IMG/VR virus record: IMGVR_UViG_3300029266_001744
Coordinates: 1 to 25,784 of that record
DNA from: a virus
Length of the DNA stretch: 25,784 nt
Strand: one strand, 5' to 3'
This document shows positions 5,792-25,784 of the stretch, in pieces (the stretch's first letter is position 1; every line of letters begins with the position of its first letter). The position numbers were made by a program, and so were the translations under genes. A model generated the notes under the pieces. It saw only the letters and a program-made list of their open reading frames with translations. It had not been told where the DNA came from and ran no database searches.

Positions 5792-8700
5792 TTATTTTTT
5801 TGCACCAGGTTTCCCGGCATTGAAATTATTTTTACTAAATTCTAATCTGTCAACCAATTTAATGCCACTTTCTGTGTGGTCAACTGCTACAAATCCTTCT
5901 GCTTTAGTTACACTTAAAGTACCATCTTCATTGTCGATAAAGTGTTTTGTTGCTACTGCCTTATCGTACTTGGCAATAAATATATTCTTTGCTTCAGAAA
6001 GCAACTTACTTACTTTAAATAAATTAATTACAGTGTCTTTAGCTCCTATAAAAGTTTTTAATTTGTCGGTTAGTTGTTTTCTTTTTTGATCTTGGTTTTT
6101 AGGTGAAATTTTAGATACTACTTTTTCTATTTTTTCTTTATACCAATTTACAAAAGTTTCAAATGATTTATTAGGGTCAGTAATAAATTCTCCTTTTCTT
6201 ATTTCTTGATTTAAATAAGTGTTTAATAAATTTATTTTTGCTCTTGAAGAAATTTCGTCTGGTAAATCACCATAATTTACATTTAATGAATCTGCCTCTT
6301 TAATTTTTTCTAATACAAAAGCTTCTTCTTTATCATTTAATAAAATACCTGTGTCATCTTTAAAATAAGCATTGTCAAACCAAACATTACTTGATTCATT
6401 TAAACCACTTGTATCCGCCCCAAATGAAGCCCCACCACCACTTAAATCACTGTAAGTTGTGTGGAATATAATTCCTATTTTAGCATTTAATATTCTTTTA
6501 CCTATTTTAGAATTTGCTTCAACAGCATATCTAATTGTATTTGGTTTAAAAGTGTAATGTGTAGCTCCATCTATATCATCTGTTTTAACATCATCGCTGT
6601 CAAACATAAAGTCGCCTTGTAAGATTCCTTTTATTCCTACAGATGGTAAATATTCTAATGCTAATTTTAATTTTTTAGCTAAACCCGCTGCATGTCCATG
6701 ATTTTTATCTATGTCTTGAGAAGTGTAATTGATTTTTGGTTCTTTATTAAATACTGATTTAGTACCTACAAAAAATTGCCCATTGTCAGGGTTAATACCT
6801 GTAAAAATAGCTGGCGCACCATCCCATTTTACAGAAACATTTTTAATTGTATTGTCTTGTCCCTTTAAATTTTTAATTAATTCATATAAGAAATTTTTAG
6901 CTTGATTAAAACCATCTTGTCCTTGAGTTAATACTAATTCTTCAAGGTGTGTTAAATGTGTGTTGGCTTTAGTTTCTGTTAAAACTTCTGTTAGTTGTTC
7001 TTTCCACCAATTTTTAGTGAAAGCATTTTCGTTTTTCATTCGTTGTGTTTTTTCCTTAGAAGCTTCTTTAACTTTTATAGTTCCAACCATATCACTTCCT
7101 AAATGAGGATCACAATGATAATTATAAATTCCAGATTTACTAAATTTAACAGTAAAAGTCCACCCTTTACCTACTTGGTTTTTAAAGCTTCCAGGATTAT
7201 TTTTATTTCGGGGATGAGATTTATCTCCATTCACATTATGAATTCCCTCTTTATTAATAAATTTTATAGTATCTCCTTTATTTATTGTAATACTTTTAGG
7301 TATAAACTCTAGACCTTTAGCTATTACTTCATGTGTCGTATTTATTTTTTCATTTACTGGTTTATATCCAGAACCAAAAGGAGATGATTTACCATCATGG
7401 TTAGGAGCTACATTTTCTTTTTTCAATCGTTGAGTTTTATTCTTAGATGCTTCCTTACGTTTTTTAATGTATTCAAAAGCTGACCTTAAACGTTTTTTTA
7501 CTTCTGGATCTTTTGCTCTATTTAAAGCCGCCCTAACTCTCTGGTGGATTAAATTTATAATTTGAGACTGACGTTTGTGTGGTTTACTTTTAAAAGATGA
7601 TTTGTTTAAAGTGTCTACTATGTCTTGTCTTGTAGAAAATTTAATACTTACTGTGTCTGACGGATTTTCGTCTGTATATAATCTTCTGCCTGATCCCTTT
7701 GGTTTCTTGCCTGTTCCTTTTTTAGGGTCTTTTTTTTCTAAATAACCTAATTTTTTAGATTTTTGAACATCTCTAGTAAATACATCACTTGCTTTATATC
7801 TTGTTTGTTGTACTTGGTTTGCTTTGTAAGGTGGAAAATTTTCATTTATAGGTGTGTTATCATGATTACATTTATGGCAAATGTATAAATCATGACCACC
7901 ATCTACTATTTTCCAAGTCCAACCACAATTATCGCAAACTATACTATCACCTACTACTGCTTCTTTAACATTAGTTGTAGTTTTTAATGTTTTAGCTAGC
8001 GTTAGTGCTTTATAATATTTTTGATTTTTTTCACTTCTGTTTTTCATTTTTTTCAGACGTGATATTGCTTTATTTATTCTTGATAAAGGTATTTTTTCTC
8101 CATCTTTAATTTTAAGTCTTTTTCTAACTGTACCTTGTTTTAAATTGCCTGCTTTTTTACCTTTAGCCGCCATTTTTTCATAGGTGTCTCCCTCCATAAG
8201 TGATGAAAATTTAGCTTTAACATCATCAAGTAAGTTTTCATTAAATTCTATACCATGTCTAAATTTAAACTGCTTAATTAACCTATCAACTGAAAGATCT
8301 TTACTTTTTAATAAAAGATATGCTCCTAAATCTGCTTCTAATTCATCTTTGTCTGAACGTGGACCCGAATGGTTTAATATTAAATGGGAAATTTCGTGTG
8401 CCTCAACAAACTTTAAATCACTAAGTGTTAAATCAGAATTTATAAATTCTTCTCCATTAATTATTATTGTTTTACTTTCGGGAGCATAAAAACCATATCC
8501 ATATCCTTTAAATAAAGACTTTAACTCATCATATTTTTCATATTCCTTAAAAACTACTGTAATGTTAATTTGAGGTGCAAATGTACTAGAATATGAATGT
8601 ACTTCTACATCTTTTTCATCTGCTTCATACATTCCTCCATAACCCATTCCTCCACCAGAATACATTCCTCCTCTTCTATATTTATATCCGGGGGGAATGT

Positions 8701-9301
8701 CGTCTTCTTTTGAATAACCAGCTTTAAATTCACTACTTTTCATGTAATCTAAAACATGGTCGTTTGGGTTATATAAATCTTCTTGAATATTATCTAATAC
8801 TATATTCCAAATTTTATCTTTATCTATATGGTCGGGTAAATATTTTTGAAAAAGATCTTTTTGATCATTCATAATGAACTCTCTCATTTTAGTACCGGAC
8901 ACACCCCCTGCCTGTGGTGGAATTGGTATTTCAATTACTTTTACATCTTTTGGGTTGTATTTTTTATAATTGTCTGGTTTGAATGAGGGGTCTGTTAGTA
9001 CTTTAAAACGTGGGTAATCTTTTTCCCCCGTGCCTACATAAATTGTATCTTCTTCTGTAGCTTTTTCTTCTACATATTTAAAAACATCTGCTATGGGAGA
9101 ATCTGAAGCAGCTGGTTCAGCTTCAATACCATATATATCCCATATTTTAATGGACATAGCTTGTGTTATACTACCTCTTTCTTTTGATCCTACTCTAACT
9201 AAAACTTCTGCTTTCGATTTTTGAGAAAGATATTTAGCCACAGCATAGTGCCCAGCATGGGGTGGTTTAAATCCACCAGGTAAAAGTGCGATGTTTGCCA
9301 T
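5792..9301 (-). CDS. Mosaic seven-module protein: HxGH nucleotidyltransferase, HExxH peptidase, zinc ribbon, plastocyanin-like and KxDG ligase-like domains
   Basis: A 1169-residue protein. Modules in order: (1) residues 1-177, HxGH nucleotidyltransferase with PGGFKPPHAGHY at 8-19 and SGTKMR at 135-140, as in adenylyl/cytidylyltransferases; (2) Gly/Met-rich linker 211-226; (3) about 228-369, HExxH peptidase of ImmA/M78 style (HEISH 302-306, likely third ligand Glu322); (4) about 372-441, basic domain resembling what I know as DUF5872; (5) about 450-482, zinc ribbon (C456, C459, C475, C478); (6) about 500-613, basic domain resembling DUF5824; (7) about 656-745, type-1 copper domain (H688, C730, H733, M738); (8) about 780-1100, KxDG nucleotidyltransferase/ligase-like domain (K825-W-D-G), then a tail of about 65 residues. 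DUF names are from memory. Short Glu-containing linkers separate the modules. The frame is open throughout. Probably a packaged, processed polyprotein; this is inference. Confidence 0.85.
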   Translation of the reverse strand: MANIALLPGGFKPPHAGHYAVAKYLSQKSKAEVLVRVGSKERGSITQAMSIKIWDIYGIEAEPAASDSPIADVFKYVEEKATEEDTIYVGTGEKDYPRFKVLTDPSFKPDNYKKYNPKDVKVIEIPIPPQAGGVSGTKMREFIMNDQKDLFQKYLPDHIDKDKIWNIVLDNIQEDLYNPNDHVLDYMKSSEFKAGYSKEDDIPPGYKYRRGGMYSGGGMGYGGMYEADEKDVEVHSYSSTFAPQINITVVFKEYEKYDELKSLFKGYGYGFYAPESKTIIINGEEFINSDLTLSDLKFVEAHEISHLILNHSGPRSDKDELEADLGAYLLLKSKDLSVDRLIKQFKFRHGIEFNENLLDDVKAKFSSLMEGDTYEKMAAKGKKAGNLKQGTVRKRLKIKDGEKIPLSRINKAISRLKKMKNRSEKNQKYYKALTLAKTLKTTTNVKEAVVGDSIVCDNCGWTWKIVDGGHDLYICHKCNHDNTPINENFPPYKANQVQQTRYKASDVFTRDVQKSKKLGYLEKKDPKKGTGKKPKGSGRRLYTDENPSDTVSIKFSTRQDIVDTLNKSSFKSKPHKRQSQIINLIHQRVRAALNRAKDPEVKKRLRSAFEYIKKRKEASKNKTQRLKKENVAPNHDGKSSPFGSGYKPVNEKINTTHEVIAKGLEFIPKSITINKGDTIKFINKEGIHNVNGDKSHPRNKNNPGSFKNQVGKGWTFTVKFSKSGIYNYHCDPHLGSDMVGTIKVKEASKEKTQRMKNENAFTKNWWKEQLTEVLTETKANTHLTHLEELVLTQGQDGFNQAKNFLYELIKNLKGQDNTIKNVSVKWDGAPAIFTGINPDNGQFFVGTKSVFNKEPKINYTSQDIDKNHGHAAGLAKKLKLALEYLPSVGIKGILQGDFMFDSDDVKTDDIDGATHYTFKPNTIRYAVEANSKIGKRILNAKIGIIFHTTYSDLSGGGASFGADTSGLNESSNVWFDNAYFKDDTGILLNDKEEAFVLEKIKEADSLNVNYGDLPDEISSRAKINLLNTYLNQEIRKGEFITDPNKSFETFVNWYKEKIEKVVSKISPKNQDQKRKQLTDKLKTFIGAKDTVINLFKVSKLLSEAKNIFIAKYDKAVATKHFIDNEDGTLSVTKAEGFVAVDHTESGIKLVDRLEFSKNNFNAGKPGAKK
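7037..7070 (-). repeat. Linker repeat, copy after the copper domain
   Basis: Encodes KEASKEKTQRM between the copper domain and the ligase-like domain. It is 28/34 identical at the DNA level to the copy at 7424-7457. The encoded VKEAS is a candidate prohead-protease-type cleavage site. Confidence 0.7.
7067..7336 (-). other. Plastocyanin-like (type-1 copper) domain inside the mosaic protein
   Basis: These codons are residues 656-745 of the mosaic protein. The segment has the pattern expected of a small cupredoxin: an opening FIPKSITINKGDTIKF strand pair, first ligand in GIHNV (His688), then after 42 residues YHCDPHLGSDM, giving Cys730, His733 and Met738 in the exact C-x2-H-x4-M spacing of plastocyanin. 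Such domains carry single electrons via copper. Type-1 copper proteins normally work outside the cytoplasm, yet no signal peptide precedes this one. All four ligands are present, so it could bind copper if released or exposed. Confidence 0.88.
7424..7457 (-). repeat. Linker repeat, copy before the copper domain
   Basis: Encodes KEASKNKTQRL after the second basic domain. Together with the copy at 7037-7070 it flanks the copper domain module, a layout that would allow the module to be gained or lost by recombination between the copies. Confidence 0.7.
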
Positions 9302-9313
9302 TAATTACTATAG

Positions 9314-9328
9314 TTTATTATAAATATA
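9314..9328 (-). promoter_or_regulatory. Candidate phage promoter upstream of the mosaic protein gene
   Basis: The minus strand reads TATATTTATAATAAA, 12 bases before the ATG at 9301, in the 32-base gap after the primase gene. Near-identical 15-mers occur 11-13 bases before two other starts (12017 and 15608). The shared position and sequence support a real element, but a translation-enhancing A-rich leader is an alternative. Confidence 0.4.
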
Positions 9329-9333
9329 AACCT

Positions 9334-10257
9334 CTACGACAAGGCTAGCCTTTTTTTCATTAGAATAGAAGTCGTAAGTTCTGTTGCGTTGTGGAGAAGT
9401 TTTGTAAATGTTTCAAAACCAAGTTCAGATGGGTCCTTATCTCCCATTTCTATAAGATAAACTTGTTTTCCATAAGACATAAATGTTTTTGCATGATTAA
9501 AGGCATCCTTTAAAGCATCTTCATCTAAAGCAAGATATATCTTTTTTACATTAGATTTAATAATTTTTGTCATTAAAGAATCAGAAATACGTTTTCCAAA
9601 TAAAGGAATTGCATTACGTTTTATAGCCATGGCATCGAATGCACCTTCACATAAAACAATGGGCAAGTCCCAATTTATATACATTTCAAAACCAATTATG
9701 TCCTTAGTACTGGAAGCTAATTTATGTTTAATGTATGCATTTTTGTCAAACGAACGACCTACATAATAATTTAAAAAACCATCTTTATCGTATGAAGGAA
9801 TAATAACCATATTTTTAAGTTCTCCCTGTTCACAGTAGTGTAAGTCATATTTTACTACGTCTTGTTGGGTGATTCCTCTTTGATCTAAATAATGTAAAGC
9901 GTGTTTTGACAAGATCGCTGAAGAAGACATTATCGGCGTTACACCCTGAGGTAAATGCAAAGAACCCGACGGTGCTTTAGCGATGGTTGATTTTTTAAAA
10001 CTATATTGAACATCTATATCTTTTAATATATCATACGCTTTTAAAGAAGCACTTACCTGTTTTAATAATTTAAAAGCACGGTGGCCTTTATAACCACAAA
10101 CCCAACATTGAAATTTTTGTGTTGATAAGTTAACTGTTAGTTTCTTTTTACGATGGTTGCAAGACGGACAATTAAATACAGCTTCCTCACCTCCACGAGC
10201 TGACTTACTTCCGCCTAAAATAGATTCTAATAGTCTTTTTAATAAATCTTCTTTCAT
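9334..10257 (-). CDS. DNA primase, DnaG/T4 gp61-type
   Basis: A 307-residue primase that would make RNA primers for lagging-strand synthesis with the phage helicase and polymerase. It has an N-terminal zinc-binding domain with C30-x2-C33 and C51-x2-C54 (FNCPSC...QCWVCG), a central basic region (about 148-180, with IIPSYDKDG and YYVGRSF), and a Toprim domain with the catalytic Glu204 in CEGAFDA and the metal-binding LDEDA at 244-248, followed by DKDPSELG as in DnaG proteins. At 307 residues it is close to T4 gp61 and much shorter than bacterial DnaG, lacking a long C-terminal helicase-binding domain. The ATG overlaps the stop of the GIY-YIG gene by four bases (ATGA). The assignment as a primase is firm; which T4 lineage it belongs to is less sure. 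Confidence 0.9.
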   Translation of the reverse strand: MKEDLLKRLLESILGGSKSARGGEEAVFNCPSCNHRKKKLTVNLSTQKFQCWVCGYKGHRAFKLLKQVSASLKAYDILKDIDVQYSFKKSTIAKAPSGSLHLPQGVTPIMSSSAILSKHALHYLDQRGITQQDVVKYDLHYCEQGELKNMVIIPSYDKDGFLNYYVGRSFDKNAYIKHKLASSTKDIIGFEMYINWDLPIVLCEGAFDAMAIKRNAIPLFGKRISDSLMTKIIKSNVKKIYLALDEDALKDAFNHAKTFMSYGKQVYLIEMGDKDPSELGFETFTKLLHNATELTTSILMKKRLALS

Positions 10258-10682
10258 CTAAAATCTTTGTCGAAAAATTTACCTAATATGTTATCGTTAA
10301 GATATAATTTGTCTTCTAATACCTCTAATATAAATTGATATTTACATTCTAAATATGTAAGTTCTTTTTTATTGTAAGCTATTTGTAGGATTTTTCTTTC
10401 TAAATCGTCATCATTAGCATCTTTAATAAATGCATGAGAACCATAGTAGGTTTTCCAATCGCTTTCTTTTAACACTCTTTTAAATGTTGGTGGGCGACCT
10501 TTGCCTTCATATAGGGCTTTTTCTTTTTTACCTAATTTTTTCTTTAAATTGTAAATTAAAGATTTTTTACCAATGTATCGTTTACCCGTTGGGGTGTGAG
10601 TTGTTTGATAAATAAAACCAAATGCACCTTCTGGGAGGTCATTGATTTCTTGTATAAGTTCGTTTTGATAGTACCATTGCAT
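10254..10682 (-). CDS. GIY-YIG family nuclease
   Basis: A 142-residue protein from the ATG at 10682. A TTG five codons upstream lies next to the terminator and is a poor start. It has the GIY-YIG signature as GFIY at 22-25 and YIG at 36-38, followed by basic residues, WKTYYGS at 76-82, and a helix with Glu112 in the place of the metal-binding catalytic Glu. Members of this family cut or nick DNA; phage versions include Seg homing endonucleases and restriction-like enzymes. No separate DNA-binding domain is visible, so it is a minimal form. It is first in the two-gene unit with primase, so a role in phage DNA processing or host DNA breakdown is as likely as homing. Confidence 0.8.
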   Translation of the reverse strand: MQWYYQNELIQEINDLPEGAFGFIYQTTHTPTGKRYIGKKSLIYNLKKKLGKKEKALYEGKGRPPTFKRVLKESDWKTYYGSHAFIKDANDDDLERKILQIAYNKKELTYLECKYQFILEVLEDKLYLNDNILGKFFDKDFR

Positions 10683-10694
10683 AGTACTAATATA

Positions 10695-10726
10695 CAAAAA
10701 AGGCCCTGGAAAACCAAGGCCTTTTA
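10695..10726 (-). terminator. Intrinsic terminator closing the tail/baseplate block
   Basis: On the minus strand AAAAGGCCTTGG and CCAGGGCCTTTT form a 12-base-pair stem around a TTTT loop, followed by further T residues (six in total). The single imperfect pair is a T-G wobble only on the minus-strand RNA; on the plus strand it would be a C-A mismatch, so the element acts in the direction of the genes. It separates the fibre gene from the nuclease/primase genes. Confidence 0.88.
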
Positions 10727-10751
10727 ATATTTTAGAAATTAATTATTGTTA

Positions 10752-12017
10752 TTATGATGTTGGTGTTCCAAAAAATCTAAGAAGAAATTTACCTGCATCG
10801 TAAGTACCTGCTGTGGTTCCTCCATGAGTTAAGTAAATAAAATCATCTTGGATACCTCCTGAAGGTATTGTAAATGCAGTTTTTAAAGCTAATGTATGAA
10901 CACCACTATTAGCTAATACATGATGAGCACCAGTTTCCCCATCAGCATCTTCTGCGAGTGTACCAGTTGCATGTGCAACTACATTAACATCTGGATCTCC
11001 TGTTGTTGGTACTTCTAAACAAACTATTTCACCTGCATATATCATACCATTAATTGCTGTTGTCATTTTTGTAACAAAAGCATTTGCAACTCCATCTTCT
11101 CCAATTACATCTCCTTCTCCACCACTTGATAAAATTAAACCTGCACCTATGTCTATAAAGACTTCAGTTACAATATCTCTACCAATTCTAGAAACATTTA
11201 TTTCAGGTGATACGGCATCTATTCCTGTACCAGCTGCTGTACCAGTGGCTGATGTTACAGTTAAAGATGTTGTATTTAAAGTGGTTCCTGCTGTTACGTC
11301 TATATCTAAAATACCCGCATCAATGTCTACAATTGAACCTGCGTTTGCATCTGCATCAAGATGAAAAGCAACTCCTGCTGTGTGAGCAGTAACTATAGAT
11401 ATATTACTAGCTGCTCCTGCGGCATCAATAGTAACGGCACCTGAAGTATCTATATCTAAGGCGGCTGAATTTATATCCATTGTGCCTGTGGTAGTTAAAT
11501 CTAATTCGCCTGATCCAGCTCCAATTGCAACTCCTACAGCATCTAAAGTAGCTGCCCCTTGAATATCTATATCTATAATACCTGCGTCAATGTCTAATAT
11601 TGAGCCTGCAGCTGCATTAGCGTCAATTAAAATTGATTGACCTGCTGTGTGTGCTGAATGTAGTGTTATAAGACCATCTGCTGTAGAAGTTGTTAATGCA
11701 ATGTCATCTGCTGCATCTAATGTAATATTATCTGAAGCATCTATGTCTACTGTTACTGCATTGATATCAATATTAGCGTCAGAAGTTAAATCTAATTCTT
11801 CACCGGTTGTTGATTGGAAGCTATTTGCAATAATAGTTCCTGAAGCACTAATGTTTCCACTTGCTGTTATGTGACTACTAAAAATAGCAATTCCTGCTAC
11901 TGTTCCACCGTCTGTTAGGTTTAATCCACTGTCAATTAAATTTGCAAATTGAGCTTCTGTAGGTTTATCACCCGTATTAAAATGCCCTTTTAGGGTTGAT
12001 CTTGATTCTGCTGACAT
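10752..12017 (-). CDS. Repetitive tail fibre-like protein
   Basis: A 421-residue protein. The N-terminus (SRSTLKGHFNTGDKPTEAQF at 5-24, then NLIDS) matches a short attachment module I associate with fibre proteins of marine and flavobacterial phages. Residues about 74-252 are low-complexity beta repeats rich in Asp, Ile, Ala and Thr, containing two diverged copies of a roughly 90-residue unit (ELDLT at 74 and 171; AHTAG at 122 and 211; then AGSI..DIDAGI), which would suit a trimeric beta-helix shaft. Residues 270-421 are more complex and probably form the distal knob, ending LLRFFGTPTS. It is the last gene before the terminator. Likely role: host recognition at the cell surface. No chaperone or peptidase domain is visible. 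Confidence 0.75.
   Translation of the reverse strand: MSAESRSTLKGHFNTGDKPTEAQFANLIDSGLNLTDGGTVAGIAIFSSHITASGNISASGTIIANSFQSTTGEELDLTSDANIDINAVTVDIDASDNITLDAADDIALTTSTADGLITLHSAHTAGQSILIDANAAAGSILDIDAGIIDIDIQGAATLDAVGVAIGAGSGELDLTTTGTMDINSAALDIDTSGAVTIDAAGAASNISIVTAHTAGVAFHLDADANAGSIVDIDAGILDIDVTAGTTLNTTSLTVTSATGTAAGTGIDAVSPEINVSRIGRDIVTEVFIDIGAGLILSSGGEGDVIGEDGVANAFVTKMTTAINGMIYAGEIVCLEVPTTGDPDVNVVAHATGTLAEDADGETGAHHVLANSGVHTLALKTAFTIPSGGIQDDFIYLTHGGTTAGTYDAGKFLLRFFGTPTS
11262..11798 (-). repeat. Beta-repeat region of the fibre gene
   Basis: Codes for residues 74-252 of the fibre, with two copies of a roughly 90-residue unit and many shorter LDID/DIDAG sub-repeats. Repeats of this type allow shaft length to change by recombination. 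Confidence 0.65.
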
Positions 12018-12030
12018 AATTTTATTTTAT

Positions 12031-12045
12031 TTTATTATACATATA
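12031..12045 (-). promoter_or_regulatory. Candidate phage promoter upstream of the fibre gene
   Basis: The minus strand reads TATATGTATAATAAA, 13 bases before the ATG at 12017, differing at one base from the element before 9301. It is followed by an A-rich leader (AAATAAAATAAAATT). Confidence 0.4.
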
Positions 12046-13857
12046 TTAAGTGTCCCACCTCAGTACGAAAGTGGTATCTGTTTCATCTGACGTTCTTACA
12101 GGTTGTCCTAACTTTCCTACAACAAGTAATTCATTGTTTTCATTGTATAAACCTACTGTAGTTACATATGGTTTAAAAAGTGAGCTTGTTGCAAAATTTG
12201 CTATGTCTCCTGAGTCTCTTGATTTTATTTTTCTGGCTGATATGTTTGTAGTGTCATTAAACTCATACTCATCAACTGTACATTGATATTCATTTTCATA
12301 AATTAAATGTGATCCTTGAAATTTTAATTGGGTAATGTGATTTTCACCCACTGCAAAACTTTCACCTACTACAAAATCTCCTATTCCCCCCAAAACTACT
12401 TGATATTGAGGATGAGTAATAGTAGCTAATCCATTTTGATAAAAAATATTTCCAACATATGGAGACCCATTACTACTACTATAATGGTTTAAAACTTGAG
12501 TATCAGACAATGCTTTATCAAATATGTTTATTTGGCTTAAGGATCCCGTTAAAAAACTTGTATTTCCTCCTTTATTACCAATGTAAACATTAGCTTGGTT
12601 TTGTGTTTGGTTAATAGATTGATCTATAGCTGTTGTTCCACTTGCCACCCCATTTATATATATTTTCATTTCTGATGATGAAACTCTACAAGAAACTTGT
12701 TGCATAGAGCTTGTGGTAAAGGAGGAACTTACTGTAGTTGTAATGTCTCCATCTGATCTTCTAAAAAATAGTTGGGGTGTGTTTGCTGTGTTATTTTTAA
12801 TAAATACTTCAAATGGGAATTGTGGTTTAGAGGGAATATCTTTTGACTGTAGTGATCCTGTTTTTTGTAAATTTACGGAGGTTCCTATAGATGTAGTTTC
12901 AGAAGGGACTACAGTTCGAGTAGTTGATTTTGAAATAAGATAACAAGATTCATATCCTTCCCCCACTCTAAAAATGGGATCTTCTTCACCCACTTTCATT
13001 TCTCCTATACCTTCTTCCCCAAACCAATCTGCATTAGCCCAGAAATTAATGGTGAAATCATCTCCTTTGTTAAAGTTAAATTTTTCATCATGACCCAACA
13101 TTAATTCAGATTGAAAACCATCAAAATCAATTCCCGAAAAACTACTGCTGTCAAATAATGTCTTTTTAGAAAAATTAACATTACTATATTTAAGTAAATT
13201 AAAATAATAACTATCGTCAAATTCATCTCCAAAATGAGGTGTATTATAAGAAGATAATCTATTTACTCTAAGTGAACCATTTCTATAAACAGTACTTGGT
13301 GAATAATCATTATACGATAAAAAACCCTCGTATGTGTTTAAGTCATATTTTTTAAATCCTTTAACAGGTCCAATGTTTAAAAGATTTGAACGAATGTCTG
13401 TTTCAAAATTATCTAAATTAGTTCCACTGATTATTAAATTTCCATCACTATCATCTACTACTTTATATATACTAGAAGAAAGAAACAATGTACTTGGTTT
13501 TACTTCAAAACCATATAATCCCGCGGGGATTGAAAGTATATTAACATTTTCGTATAACTCTCTTTTTTGGTTTAAATAATGATTGTTACCAAATCTATTA
13601 GATATATCTCTTTTAAAATCTTTATAAAAAAGATGATCTAATTGTCTATATTTTACCGCATTAATACTGTCAGCTGGTAAACCATAAGAGGTACTAGCAG
13701 AACTATAAAGATCTATAGATTCAGAAGTCCATCTTGAACGAAAAACATTTACACTGTTTGAGGAAGCTGAACCTGAATCAAAGTTATATTGTTTATGGGC
13801 ATTAAATGGTACTACTGCTATATCTTGGGTTGTAAGTTTTTTATAAACTGTTGACAT
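12046..13857 (-). CDS. LamG-like lectin-domain virion protein
   Basis: A 603-residue protein, rich in Ser, Asn and Tyr. Residues about 262-460 look like a concanavalin A-like/LamG fold: DDFTINFWANADWFG, then MKIYINGVASG at 397-407, then VYIGNKGG and a closing INIFDKALSDTQV, the usual strand order of such domains. A NIFYQNGLATITHPQYQ segment follows at 470-486. The last 90 residues (about 515-603) form a module shared with the next gene upstream: EFN-x-TTN, then PYVTTVGLYN, then KLGQPV. The LamG domain suggests binding to host surface glycans, and the shared C-terminal module is probably the attachment part. It is likely a tail or baseplate appendage; the exact T4 counterpart, if any, is unknown. 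Confidence 0.7.
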   Translation of the reverse strand: MSTVYKKLTTQDIAVVPFNAHKQYNFDSGSASSNSVNVFRSRWTSESIDLYSSASTSYGLPADSINAVKYRQLDHLFYKDFKRDISNRFGNNHYLNQKRELYENVNILSIPAGLYGFEVKPSTLFLSSSIYKVVDDSDGNLIISGTNLDNFETDIRSNLLNIGPVKGFKKYDLNTYEGFLSYNDYSPSTVYRNGSLRVNRLSSYNTPHFGDEFDDSYYFNLLKYSNVNFSKKTLFDSSSFSGIDFDGFQSELMLGHDEKFNFNKGDDFTINFWANADWFGEEGIGEMKVGEEDPIFRVGEGYESCYLISKSTTRTVVPSETTSIGTSVNLQKTGSLQSKDIPSKPQFPFEVFIKNNTANTPQLFFRRSDGDITTTVSSSFTTSSMQQVSCRVSSSEMKIYINGVASGTTAIDQSINQTQNQANVYIGNKGGNTSFLTGSLSQINIFDKALSDTQVLNHYSSSNGSPYVGNIFYQNGLATITHPQYQVVLGGIGDFVVGESFAVGENHITQLKFQGSHLIYENEYQCTVDEYEFNDTTNISARKIKSRDSGDIANFATSSLFKPYVTTVGLYNENNELLVVGKLGQPVRTSDETDTTFVLRWDT

Positions 13858-13869
13858 TCATGATATATT

Positions 13870-14904
13870 TTAATAATCTAGTTTTACTCTAATAAGTGCT
13901 TCTTTTGTAAAATCTTTAGTTACGGGTTGACTTAACTTTGCAACAGCAACTAAATCACCACTGTCATTATACAATCCTACTGTTGTAATAAATGTTGTAG
14001 GATTATCTATCATTGATGTAAAATTTAAATTTCCTACATTGTCTATAAATGATGGATTTGTTGTATAATTAAATTCTGTATTTGTAGCTCTAGTAAAATA
14101 AAATTGTGAGCTTACTTTTTCTTCACTATCTACTATAAAATGTCCTGAACGTGATATATGGTCCTTTAAAGTTTCGTGATTTTTACCATTAGTATGTGAT
14201 GCTACTGATGATGTTATCCCAATAGCAGAAGTATCTGTTAAAGCTTGTGGGTTTAAGATTATAAATCCACTGTCTGGATAAAAAAGACCATATGAACCTG
14301 TGTTAGTAACTTGGGTTAAAAGACTTCCTGACATAGTTCCTAATGAACCTGACACTATATTAAATTGCCTACCTGCATTTGTGATAGTTGAAGATCCTGT
14401 TGTTGTTACACTATCATCTGTTAAATGGATTGTTCTTGCATCCCCCGCTGAACCAGATAATCTTAAATCTAAAGATCCAGGTTTTAAATTATGTTTATAT
14501 CTTGATCTGTTGATATTAATAACATAAATGTCATCAGGAGTAAAGCCATCAAAACTAAAGTTTGAAGTTTCATCCCCAAATACTAATTGACGATATTGAC
14601 TGTAGATGTTAGATGATGGACTTTTTCCAAGAGCTCCAGTGTCATTTGTAAAATCTAAAGAACCTGATCCTTTTTTGTTTCCGTAAGCAATAGCATATTG
14701 TGATACTGCTGTTGTGTCTGATGTAGCTTTATTAAATACTTCTATAAAATGTGCTCCTGAACTTGTAGCTGTAGTGTATACTGCTTGTGTGGAAGAAGTA
14801 AAAGCTACTTGTAAGTTGTTAGTATTATCTGACCATGTAGATGTTGTTGTCTTACTTGTGTCATTTACTACATCAGTGTCATTATATCTTATTAAATTTG
14901 CCAT
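13870..14904 (-). CDS. Baseplate/tail appendage protein sharing a C-terminal module with its neighbour
   Basis: A 344-residue protein, rich in Thr, Ser and Asn. Residues 1-250 show alternating short strands and no recognised domain. Residues about 255-344 carry the same C-terminal module as the downstream 603-residue protein: TEFNYTTN at 276-283, TFITTVGLYN at 303-312 and KLSQPV at 323-328, ending in a charged strand and Asp-Tyr. It has no signal peptide or membrane segment. The ATG at 14904 follows an A-rich leader (AAATAAAATAAAAAATG). The shared end suggests both proteins dock to the same partner in the tail. A structural role is inferred from position and composition. Confidence 0.6.
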   Translation of the reverse strand: MANLIRYNDTDVVNDTSKTTTSTWSDNTNNLQVAFTSSTQAVYTTATSSGAHFIEVFNKATSDTTAVSQYAIAYGNKKGSGSLDFTNDTGALGKSPSSNIYSQYRQLVFGDETSNFSFDGFTPDDIYVININRSRYKHNLKPGSLDLRLSGSAGDARTIHLTDDSVTTTGSSTITNAGRQFNIVSGSLGTMSGSLLTQVTNTGSYGLFYPDSGFIILNPQALTDTSAIGITSSVASHTNGKNHETLKDHISRSGHFIVDSEEKVSSQFYFTRATNTEFNYTTNPSFIDNVGNLNFTSMIDNPTTFITTVGLYNDSGDLVAVAKLSQPVTKDFTKEALIRVKLDY

Positions 14905-14912
14905 TTTTTATT

Positions 14913-15608
14913 TTATTTTAATGTTATTCCTGTTACTCCTTGAGTAGCTGAGGTTGCAATTACTTCTTTAGAGATTTCAACTGGAATTGTAGTTCTAGCA
15001 CCTGAATCTACTCCCTCAATTGTTATAGTTGTTAATAATTTATTATTAGTTCCAAATAATGAAGTGCTGTTAATAGCAGACAATTGAATGCTAGTACCTA
15101 TTACAGTTTCACTTACTGCGGTTGAAGTGTAGGGTCTAGAAGTTGATGTACTTTGTTGTCCTATTCCTGCACCTACAAAATTAATTAGTAATCTTCTATC
15201 AGCAATGGTAGCCATATATCCACCTCTTTCTGTTAAATTAGCTGATCCGTTATAATTGTTAGTAGTTGGATTGATTACAAATGATGAACCAATAGTTAAT
15301 GTGATTTTAGATACGTTGGCCGTTACTATTGGTAATTTAGACGTACCTCTTGGTAAAGTTATTAACTTATGGATCATTATATTATTTTCATCGGGAACTG
15401 CTTCAATAAGAGGCATATTTTCAATTGCTTCTCCTGCGAATTGTGATCCGTTTGGATGACTTTCATTGAATAAAGTATAATCTACTTCATCATCCCCTAA
15501 GGCAAATTGTGTAATTCTAAAAGAACCATCATTTCTGGAAAGAAGTTCGCGTCCTCTTTTTGTTAAAATTGCATCTACTGTAATGCTGCTATTGTCTAAG
15601 TATCCCAT
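14913..15608 (-). CDS. Conserved virion-type protein
   Basis: A 231-residue protein starting MGYLDNSSITVDAILTKRGR. The N-terminal third (about 1-80, with ITQFALGDDEVDYTLFNESH) is a compact, distinctive domain that I recall from uncultured marine phage structural proteins. The remainder is Thr/Ser/Ile-rich beta sequence. No enzyme motif is present. It opens with its own candidate promoter motif upstream and sits among baseplate/tail genes, so a baseplate or tail-collar component is likely. I cannot match it to a numbered T4 protein. Confidence 0.6.
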   Translation of the reverse strand: MGYLDNSSITVDAILTKRGRELLSRNDGSFRITQFALGDDEVDYTLFNESHPNGSQFAGEAIENMPLIEAVPDENNIMIHKLITLPRGTSKLPIVTANVSKITLTIGSSFVINPTTNNYNGSANLTERGGYMATIADRRLLINFVGAGIGQQSTSTSRPYTSTAVSETVIGTSIQLSAINSTSLFGTNNKLLTTITIEGVDSGARTTIPVEISKEVIATSATQGVTGITLK

Positions 15609-15619
15609 TATTGTTATGT

Positions 15620-15634
15620 TTTGTTATAAATATA
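15620..15634 (-). promoter_or_regulatory. Candidate phage promoter upstream of the 231-residue virion protein gene
   Basis: The minus strand reads TATATTTATAACAAA, 11 bases before the ATG at 15608, in a 43-base gap, one of the longer gaps in the window. It differs at one base from the element before 9301. Confidence 0.4.
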
Positions 15635-15651
15635 TATGTTTTTTAGAAATA

Positions 15652-17283: not shown

Positions 17284-20200
17284 TTAATAATCTGTTTCTT
17301 TACCATTTCTATCTAAACTACGATAATATATACGAGATTTTTTACCGTTCACAGCATTTCCTAATAATACATTTGAACTTTTTTCTACATATCCCGCAGG
17401 TTGAGTTGTTGTAAAAGGTCTAATAGGTGCTTGTGAAATATTTTGTACTAAACGTGGCAAATAAGTGTCCATGTCTATAGTAATATTAGTTCCTTTTTCT
17501 TGTCTTTTACCAGTTGTACTACCTGTTACTGATGATAGGATGTTTGTAGTTATAACACTTGAACCATCCAAGCTAAATTGCCGTTCAGGATCAATTTGAA
17601 AATCAAAAGTTTGATATGATCCTTGAGTCATTGTAGTACCATAATCTACTACTGGTATTTCTCTTGCAAATTTATTTCTTTCTAAATAATGTGGTTCAAT
17701 TAATAAACCTGTTTTTAAATTAGCTTTCATTGGAACAAATTGTTCTACTAATTTAAATAATGTATGATCTATATATTGAATTAATTTTGTATAATCCCAA
17801 TAGTTATATCTATTTTTTACTCGTTTAAAATATTCATCTTTTATACTTTTTAAATCTGAATAATTTGTTGATGATTGGGCTGAAGGTAAAGGTGAACCTA
17901 TAAAATCATCTAATCTAAAAGCTCCCAATTGATAAACTATATCTTCATTTATTTCAGTTGTAGGAGAGAAAAATACTCCTAAATCTTCAAAGTCTTGAGG
18001 TTGTCTGTCGAGTGCTGATGTTTCTGATTTTTTTACAACTGACAATATATTATCATCTATAACACCTGTGTCTAATCTTACTTTTTCACTAGTCATAGAA
18101 GCACCTACTGTGTCAGGAGTAGGTAAATGGTGTGTTTCTACTACTTCTTCAAAGGTTTGATTAGTTAAATTACTTAATATAGGTGGTGAAGTTGTGCTAT
18201 AACTTCCAACTACAAATCCACTTCCAATTGCAGAAGAACCTACTCCACCTAATGATTCTAGATAATTTACATCTATATTAGGGTGGAAACTTGAGCTGTC
18301 TTGTTGGTCATTACTTCCTAAAGGTAATCTTAAAACTACATGATTAAAAGATGAAGAAATTGAATTACCGGCATACATAAAGGGTTCAAGTGCATGTTTT
18401 TTAAAAGTACTATCTGACAATAATTCACCATAATAATATCTAATTTCTTGAAATGAACCTGAATATCTTAATGTGTCTACTGTGTTATATGCTGCGTTAC
18501 CATTAGATGGTACGCCCCCAAAATAAGCATGATCAGCTCCGCCTATATCCGCTCCCCCACTAATAAACGGATCTCCAAAAGTTAAACTTCTATCTACTTC
18601 TGTTTGGGAGCTTTGAGTTACATATTTAAATATATTTTTATTAAAGTTAGCTTGATAAGCACCAAATTTTATATCAGCACTACTTCCTGAGGTTCCTGAG
18701 GTTCCTATATGAATATTCCAAAAATCACCATTATAAATAGGGAATTTTTCAGTTGATTTAACTACAGAATTATTAATATATAAATCTATTTTACCATATG
18801 AACCTGAATCTCCAGAAGAAGATATATCAGTTCCTGTATGTGGGGTTAAAACTAAATGAGGATCTTTAGTTGCATTACTTCCGGATAAGCCAAATAAATG
18901 ATAAGCGTTTTCTGATCTAAGTGGTTTTATTCTAAATTCAACTGTTTTAGCTGATGATGATAAAGCATTTGTGTTATCAGTGTGCCAAGGTGTTTTAATA
19001 AAAAATCCAGTAGATGTTCCTGAATCGCCCTTTAAAGCTAATCCTGATTTTTCGTAGCTAAATGTTTTAAATGTTGATTTATCAGATGTAGATCCTCCAT
19101 ATTCTTTTACATTTAATAATGTAGAAGGAATTCCATAACAACTCATTAATGCTCTTAATCCTCTTTCTGTTCCTTTAGTTTTTAAAAGATAAGGTGCATT
19201 GTGGTATAAACGTTTCCAAATGTTTTTAGTAATTTCTCCTTTAGGAACTGAACCAGCATTTGAGGAAGTAACTAATGTTTCATTAAATACAGTGTCGTAA
19301 AAGTTTTGGTCATTTCCTCCTATAGAAAATGTTCCTACTTGTAATCCCCCTACTGTGTTATTAGATTTACTTTTTCCTAAAATATATTCTGTTAAGTCAC
19401 TGTTTTCAAATTGATCGAAAGCTTCTATTCCCAAGCTTTTTAATTGATGATAAACTAAATCTTTTGAAATACCTCTTGTATGGTGTGTATCATTTATTTC
19501 TGTTATATGTTTTATGTGAGTCCACACATGGTCAAATTGTTGACCTATCATATCAGTAAATAAGGAAAAATTATTATTGTCTGAATTTTCTTTTATGTGA
19601 GTAGGTAATAAATTGCTTATTTTATGAACATTATCTCTATCATATAATGAAGCAGATAATAACTGTCCACCATAATTAGGATATTGGGATCTTTCTTCCC
19701 CCAACCAAGTTAATGCATTAGAAGAGGTTACTGAATATAAAGTGTGAGGATAAATGGAATTTTGTTTAGGCCATGTATAAACACTGCCCGATGTATTATA
19801 TAAAAATCTTTCATACCCATCAAATCCCTTAATTAAACTTTCTTTTTTCTTATATATGTTATTTTTATCTGTTAAAACAACAGTAGAACCCGAAGTAGGA
19901 CCCGTAATAGTATTTATTTCACTTACCTGATTATCATATAATTCTATTAATTTTAATTTATATTCAAAGTTTTTTAAACGTTCTGTGGCGCTACTAAAAT
20001 GAATAAAATTTTCAAAATGGTAAGATGGATTATCATCCTCTAATGAACTTGAAATTGATTTTATGTATGTGTAATCTATTTCGGGTACTTCTTTAGTTTC
20101 AAGTTGATTTAAAAGTTGTTCATAGGAAGAAGTAGAATTATATTCTAATATATTATTATAATTTTTAAATGCTGAGGGTACACTATTATTCAACCTAGTG

Positions 20201-25394: not shown

Positions 25395-25784
25395 TTATAC
25401 TTTTTTTTTCTTATTAATTGCTTTCATTAAACTACTATAATCTCTTGTTACTGCATTTGCTACTGAATCCGGCATTCCCGCTGTGTCCATGGGTAAGGGA
25501 GCTCCAGTTGCAAAAGGTTGGGCTAAATTTACAGGAGCTTGGGCTGTTTGTGTATTTGTGCTACCTGCGGCTGTTTCGTTTAATAAATCATTTAACATAC
25601 CATCTGCTACAAAATTTTGCTTAGAGCGTTGTTTTATAGGTGTATTACCCATAATTGTTTCTCTTAAAGATGTTTTTGAAACTTCTGGAGCTTTTACTGT
25701 TTCTATAGTGTGTTCTACTATTGTTGGTTTAGCTTCATCACGTAAATCTTCTTTAAGTGTTTTAATTTCTCTGCGTAACGCATA
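25395..25784 (-). CDS. Unidentified protein, N-terminus beyond the window edge
   Basis: The frame stays open from its stop at 25395 to the window edge (129 residues visible). An internal ATG at 25652 gives an 85-residue version, but the 44 codons upstream are open in the same frame and look coding (YALRREIKTLKEDLRDEAKP at the edge), so the real start is probably outside. The visible part has a charged helical, possibly coiled-coil start, an Ala/Pro/Thr-rich middle (AGSTNTQTAQAPVNLAQP) and a basic end (NKKKKV). It lies 3 bases before gp25. I do not recognise it; a minor tail or baseplate-hub protein is plausible from position. Confidence 0.6.
   Translation of the reverse strand, partial: YALRREIKTLKEDLRDEAKPTIVEHTIETVKAPEVSKTSLRETIMGNTPIKQRSKQNFVADGMLNDLLNETAAGSTNTQTAQAPVNLAQPFATGAPLPMDTAGMPDSVANAVTRDYSSLMKAINKKKKV

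Follow-up and report, generated by a model that had tools for sequence, protein, structure and literature searches.

Phage late sigma factors and compact late promoters are already known from T4 and its kin. The T4 late promoter is a compact AT-rich element, TATAAATA, at the place of a −10 box and 5′ of morphogenesis genes, with AT-rich DNA downstream and no −35 box (PMC2988020, PMC7892883), and the T4 late sigma factor gp55 is a small, diverged protein with similarity to sigma region 2, which further has a helix-loop-helix and a tail that binds the clamp (PMC7892883). Late transcription in T4 also involves the sliding clamp gp45 and the coactivator gp33 (PMC2988020, PMC7892883), the latter a small protein that evolves fast. 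In the T4 relatives 44RR, KVP40, S-PM2 and Aeh1 the late promoters have the T4 octamer or a sequence near to it (PMC2988020). Primary-sigma promoters of Bacteroidota are built from a −33 TTTG box and a −7 TAHHTTTG box (PMC6847099, PMC9723704). Here we consider three near-identical 15-base elements in IMG/VR record IMGVR_UViG_3300029266_001744, a 25.8 kb viral contig (25,784 nucleotides, nt) that makes up the whole record and is called the window below. They resemble T4 late promoters as compact AT-rich elements at the −10 place, with AT-rich DNA downstream, no −35 box and a location 5′ of morphogenesis genes, and, as for 44RR, KVP40, S-PM2 and Aeh1, an in silico consensus is tied to phages with a gp55-like protein. 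The motif type differs: it reads TATTTATAA-n-n-AA where T4 has TATAAATA, and, unlike those four relatives, the clade considered here does not keep the T4 octamer. We propose that the three elements are probably late promoters at which the host core RNA polymerase is redirected by a phage sigma factor, likely a protein related to gene product 118 (gp118) of Flavobacterium phage immuto.

The three 15-mers lie exactly where the initial annotation had placed them. Like all genes of the window they are on the minus strand, and each is within one mismatch of their consensus. The first, TATATTTATAATAAA (9314–9328), ends 12 nt before the ATG at 9301 of a gene for 1169 amino acids (aa); the variant TATATGTATAATAAA (12031–12045) ends 13 nt before the ATG at 12017 of a 421-aa gene; and TATATTTATAACAAA (15620–15634) ends 11 nt before the ATG at 15608 of a 231-aa gene, the same distances as first reported. 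Their location in real intergenic gaps also holds: they occupy three of the four gaps longer than 25 nt in the window (9302–9333, 12018–12045 and 15609–15651), and the remaining one (10698–10751) holds a strong terminator hairpin. Three matches at up to one mismatch in the window compare with 0.18 expected, and none of 100 dinucleotide shuffles reached three. At up to three mismatches the count is that of chance, 18 against 17.9 expected, so that only near-exact copies of the motif are meaningful. Because enrichment cannot be judged inside a single 26 kb fragment, relatives were needed.

We retrieved 80 loci via the primase and 80 via the baseplate wedge protein, and chose orthologue upstream sequences by protein match, blind to the motif. 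TATTTATAAYAAA is present in exact form upstream of all 26 sampled orthologues of the 231-aa gene, and upstream of all 50 orthologues of the 1169-aa gene in either exact form (39/50) or with one mismatch (11/50). Taken together, these two well-sampled genes carry it at up to one mismatch in 76 of 76 sampled upstreams; the corresponding figure for the 15 other window genes is 0/318. Positions −1 to +12 show essentially no variation at the two sites, except +7 (A/T, at the first site) and +9 (C/T), and most flanking positions vary, which gives the footprint sharp edges. The motif is under strong constraint. The copy at 12031 is the weakest of the three and the least certain: its T-to-G variant TATGTATAA recurs before the same gene in 4 of 5 sampled upstreams, a small number of orthologues. 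A chance likeness of AT-rich intergenic DNA, to which the chance-level count at three mismatches might point, is refuted for the 9314 and 15620 sites by the orthologue footprint and by the whole-genome enrichment described below, and we regard its overall probability as negligible.

Three long relatives of 160–167 kb were available for genome-wide analysis, namely immuto and two metagenomic genomes of 162 and 167 kb (the pair G012 and G013). The search for further copies before genes, which the initial annotation had suggested, found that 7/8, 8/9 and 10/12 copies of TATTTATAAYAAA in these genomes (25/29 in all) lie within 60 nt 5′ of an open reading frame, against 4–5% expected (p 1.6e-9 to 2.8e-12), and nearly all have the orientation of the coding strand. 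Much weaker or no enrichment was seen with control words and with the reverse complement of TATTTATAAYAAA. The initial annotation had named a lack of further copies before genes, or a similar frequency inside coding sequence, as what would refute it, and both checks came out in its favour. In eleven records of the window's relatives, a related 15-base pattern had 24 matches and its reversed-pattern control none. De novo motif finding on upstream sequences only returned TATATTTATAAtAA for the window family and TTCgTATATTTAGG for immuto, and across the three long genomes the late element reads [AG][CA]TATTTATAA-n-n-AA. For the T4-type TATAAATA, the window family shows no upstream enrichment (0/4 for the window and 1/20 for G001, a fragment from one of its relatives). 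Placing TATAAATA on the opposite strand (reverse complement TATTTATA) was rejected, there being no gene on that strand; nor does the reverse complement TTATAAATA show upstream enrichment in this family. A scan of the window for E. coli sigma-70 promoters gave 29 hits against 36.9 in shuffles, hence no enrichment.

The distribution of the motif within immuto separates two promoter classes. De novo motif finding by genome half gave TATTTATAAtaAA in the morphogenesis half and TTCtTATATTTAGg in the rest. Of 13 late-type sites, 11 fall in the morphogenesis half, among them those before the genes for the portal, tail sheath and tail tube; all 20 early-type sites fall in the other half (Fisher p 4e-7 for the separation). 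The early-type sites form a uniform set, TTG-N(19-21)-TATATTTAG[GA]TA, before small hypothetical genes (20 sites in immuto, 17 in G013); TTG at this spacing is present in 20/20 and 17/17 of them, compared with 4% at random. At the −33 place of late-type sites TTG occurs in only 3/13 (immuto) and 1/14 (G013), with upstream columns nearly flat, and by reading there is no TTG-type box at the window's three sites. The names ‘early’ and ‘late’ are our inference from gene content and promoter type. With this qualification, the view of the initial annotation that these are late promoters of a type different from that of T4 is well supported, by the orthologue upstreams, the enrichment 5′ of open reading frames and the morphogenesis bias in immuto together.

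The early-type class looks like a set of host-sigma promoters, fitting the Bacteroidota form well with the TTG box included, and the window 15-mer itself has a TA..TTT in common with that form. One might therefore suppose that the host primary sigma also reads the late sites, TATATTTA being a variant −7 box with a final A, used late through an activator or an altered RNA polymerase; the TA and TTT shared with the −7 box (PMC6847099) and the presence of TATATTTA in the immuto early class speak for this. We consider it unlikely, since the TTG box, present at all early sites, is missing from most late ones, and the final G of TAHHTTTG is absent in all three window sites. Furthermore, C or A precedes TATTTATAA in the three long genomes, and most sites there have no TA pair in this position; because the preceding bases are [AG][CA], the −12/−11 TA of the host box is not kept. 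A downstream TAA-n-n-AA, on the other side, is conserved in the late class only. The existence of a phage sigma candidate, discussed below, is a further point against the host sigma, and we think it likely that the elements are read by a sigma of the phage and not by that of the host.

A distance of the motif to the start codon that is fixed, as initially described, is nearly what we find among the window's own relatives (mostly 11–13 nt, range 8–20), but the distance varies in the wider clade, and fixed spacing is for this reason not a defining feature. The near-fixed distance in the window family, together with the A-rich 3′ end of the motif near −12/−13 of the ATG, where adenines promote initiation in F. 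johnsoniae (PMC6847099), would fit an RNA-level leader element, such as a translation enhancer or a protein-binding or processing site, in place of a promoter. This seems to us very improbable. In immuto the ATG distance varies widely and the A-rich end stays with TATTTATAA at these varied distances, and therefore belongs to the promoter. Only three window genes carry the motif though all need translation, the three sites show no more RNA structure than shuffled sequence does, and the motif lies in gaps where transcription would restart. It is very likely that the elements are promoters on the coding strand. If the element occupies the place of −10/−7 boxes, leaders of ~10–16 nt would be expected in the window; the very short leaders suggested by the initial annotation thus fit the window family, as short but not leaderless RNAs, and fit distant relatives less well.

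The candidate reader emerged from the phrog_234 profile (T4 late sigma), which matched immuto gp118 (KNV73_gp118) weakly (E 0.008). In single scans of the 24 relatives in an alignment, the two PHROG families that most members matched were sigma-factor families (matched by 10 and 8 members, with best E of 0.017 and 0.0016), and profile comparison with eight gp55 proteins by hhalign aligned 103 columns in the same order with probability 87.7 and E 3.4e-6. Searches with phrog_12791 and with Pfam yielded no sigma match of use, and searching the sequences of solved structures with the sigma alignment gave nothing credible. The predicted structure of a gp118-like protein has a mean predicted local distance difference test (pLDDT) score of 74.7; its residues ~33–139 superpose on region 2 in many experimental sigma-factor structures (root-mean-square deviation mostly 2.4–3.3 Å, Z 8–9), and the structure matches listed for it are nearly all sigma factors. 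What carries the structural argument is this second alignment, along with the dominance of sigma factors among the listed matches. The gp118-like gene is found directly 5′ of baseplate genes in immuto and in the window's own relatives (for example G001 7925–8686, 47% identical) and, more diverged, in Microcystis phage Mel-JY01. Like T4 gp55, the candidate is small and diverged with similarity to region 2; unlike gp55, it has an extra helical C-terminal domain of ~90 residues (92 residues after region 2, pLDDT 87). Its identity as sigma ‘region 4’ cannot be claimed, because only general helical or helix-turn-helix folds were matched (the M domain of the signal recognition particle, AlpA, homeodomain, TFIIB). 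Profile searches for sliding clamps of the T4 or bacterial type (PF02916, PF00712), which can miss diverged clamps, found no match in immuto, G012, G013, the G001 fragment or Mel-JY01, with T4 itself found by PF02916; this suggests, short of proof, that the relatives may lack such a clamp.

Our model can then be put as follows. Late in infection, the host core RNA polymerase with a phage-encoded sigma would melt the DNA at a core element (A/C)TATTTATAA-n-n-AA, placed on the coding strand where a −10 box sits and free of a −35/−33 box, and RNA would start a few bases 3′ of TATTTATAA. The sigma would be the clade-conserved gp118-like protein, with a region-2 domain distantly related to that of T4 gp55 and the additional C-terminal domain; the gp118 homologue is the best candidate for the reader, the pairing of sigma and motif being our suggestion. 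Early-type genes of immuto and of one long relative would use the host-sigma-like promoter TTG-N19-21-TATATTTAG[GA]TA. The model predicts late RNA 5′ ends 3–8 nt 3′ of TATTTATAAnnAA and early 5′ ends 3′ of TTG-N20-TATATTTAGG. A more ambitious version, in which a one-piece late sigma with a gp55-like region 2 fused to a C-terminal domain doing the work of gp33/region 4 reads TATTTATAA without a phage clamp, is possible though doubtful.

We need to pay attention to several points that weigh against this proposal. Each single sigma match is weak (the best single-sequence hidden Markov model E-value being the 0.0016 given above), Foldseek E-values for the sigma model exceed 0.3, and helical folds can give Z of 8–9 by chance. 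The gp118-like gene is outside the window, its position falling beyond the end at 25784, where synteny places it. Mel-JY01 has the sigma relative but no TATTTATAA, which speaks against a simple sigma-motif pairing; either the late element of Mel-JY01 differs, therefore, or its sigma has another use. Lastly, G001 has one TATATTTATAAT copy (18486–18502) with only 3 nt between TATTTATAA and the called ATG of a 1200-aa gene, which may mean that the RNA is leaderless, that the start was called wrongly or that this copy is not used.

Turning to the genes behind the three elements, all on the minus strand, the 231-aa gene (14913–15608) is related to immuto gp107, which adjoins baseplate and tail genes, and in immuto TATATTTATAATAA precedes the counterpart of this gene, at 90659. 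The 1169-aa protein (5792–9301) matches phrog_455 in its C-terminal part and has a plastocyanin-like segment at residues 664–745 and a metalloprotease-like one at 241–340, an odd fusion for a phage. The 421-aa gene (10752–12017) has no PHROG match. Between it and a gene with resemblance to phrog_447 (‘NAD synthetase’) and homing endonucleases sits the terminator-like hairpin followed by a T run (10698–10725, minus strand; −20.2 kcal/mol, z −4.6).

The window also codes for baseplate wedge proteins, a DNA primase and large structural-looking proteins. A DNA-level search of phage records with it gave no match; its closest named relatives at the protein level include the immuto phages of Flavobacterium (identities of 44% for the primase and 46% for the baseplate wedge protein) and Mel-JY01 (47% for the wedge protein). 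JABGXK010000303.1, a contig in a Flavobacteriales metagenome bin, is a relative of the window's primase region (primase 74% identical) and carries the motif with one mismatch at the equivalent place, 12 nt before the next ATG; because of this, the host of the window virus is probably a marine member of the Flavobacteriales, which we offer as a lead. We take the virus to be an Immutovirus-like myovirus, related to T4, whose most likely hosts are marine Flavobacteriales.

Two side observations concern promoters in the relatives. G012 is without the immuto-type early word TATATTTAG, and the related TATCTTTAGG was found there de novo; with TATCTTTAGG in the place of TATATTTAG, early promoters would seem to drift between close relatives and the late element not. 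In Mel-JY01, de novo search upstream of genes found TcgTATATTTgTAT. Its resemblance to the Bacteroidota −7 box makes the recorded Microcystis host of this phage worth checking; Mel-JY01 has baseplate genes and the sigma candidate in common with Flavobacterium phages.

The literature we searched, in which subscription journals are little covered so that absence is unproven, contains no description of late promoters of this clade or of T4-like phages of Bacteroidota. If our proposal is correct, an abundant, largely uncultured clade of marine phages gains from sequence alone a testable transcription programme, host-type early promoters followed by a phage sigma and a late promoter particular to it, in which late transcripts would be expected to start at the places marked by the motif. 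The cultured relative immuto makes direct tests feasible. The candidate sigma would open a comparison with T4, for which it has long been asked why the design is split between gp55 and gp33 and why it depends on the sliding clamp. A 2010 review raised the idea of a fused late-transcription sigma and had found none (PMC2988020); a one-piece sigma in these phages, if true, would be of the kind asked about there.

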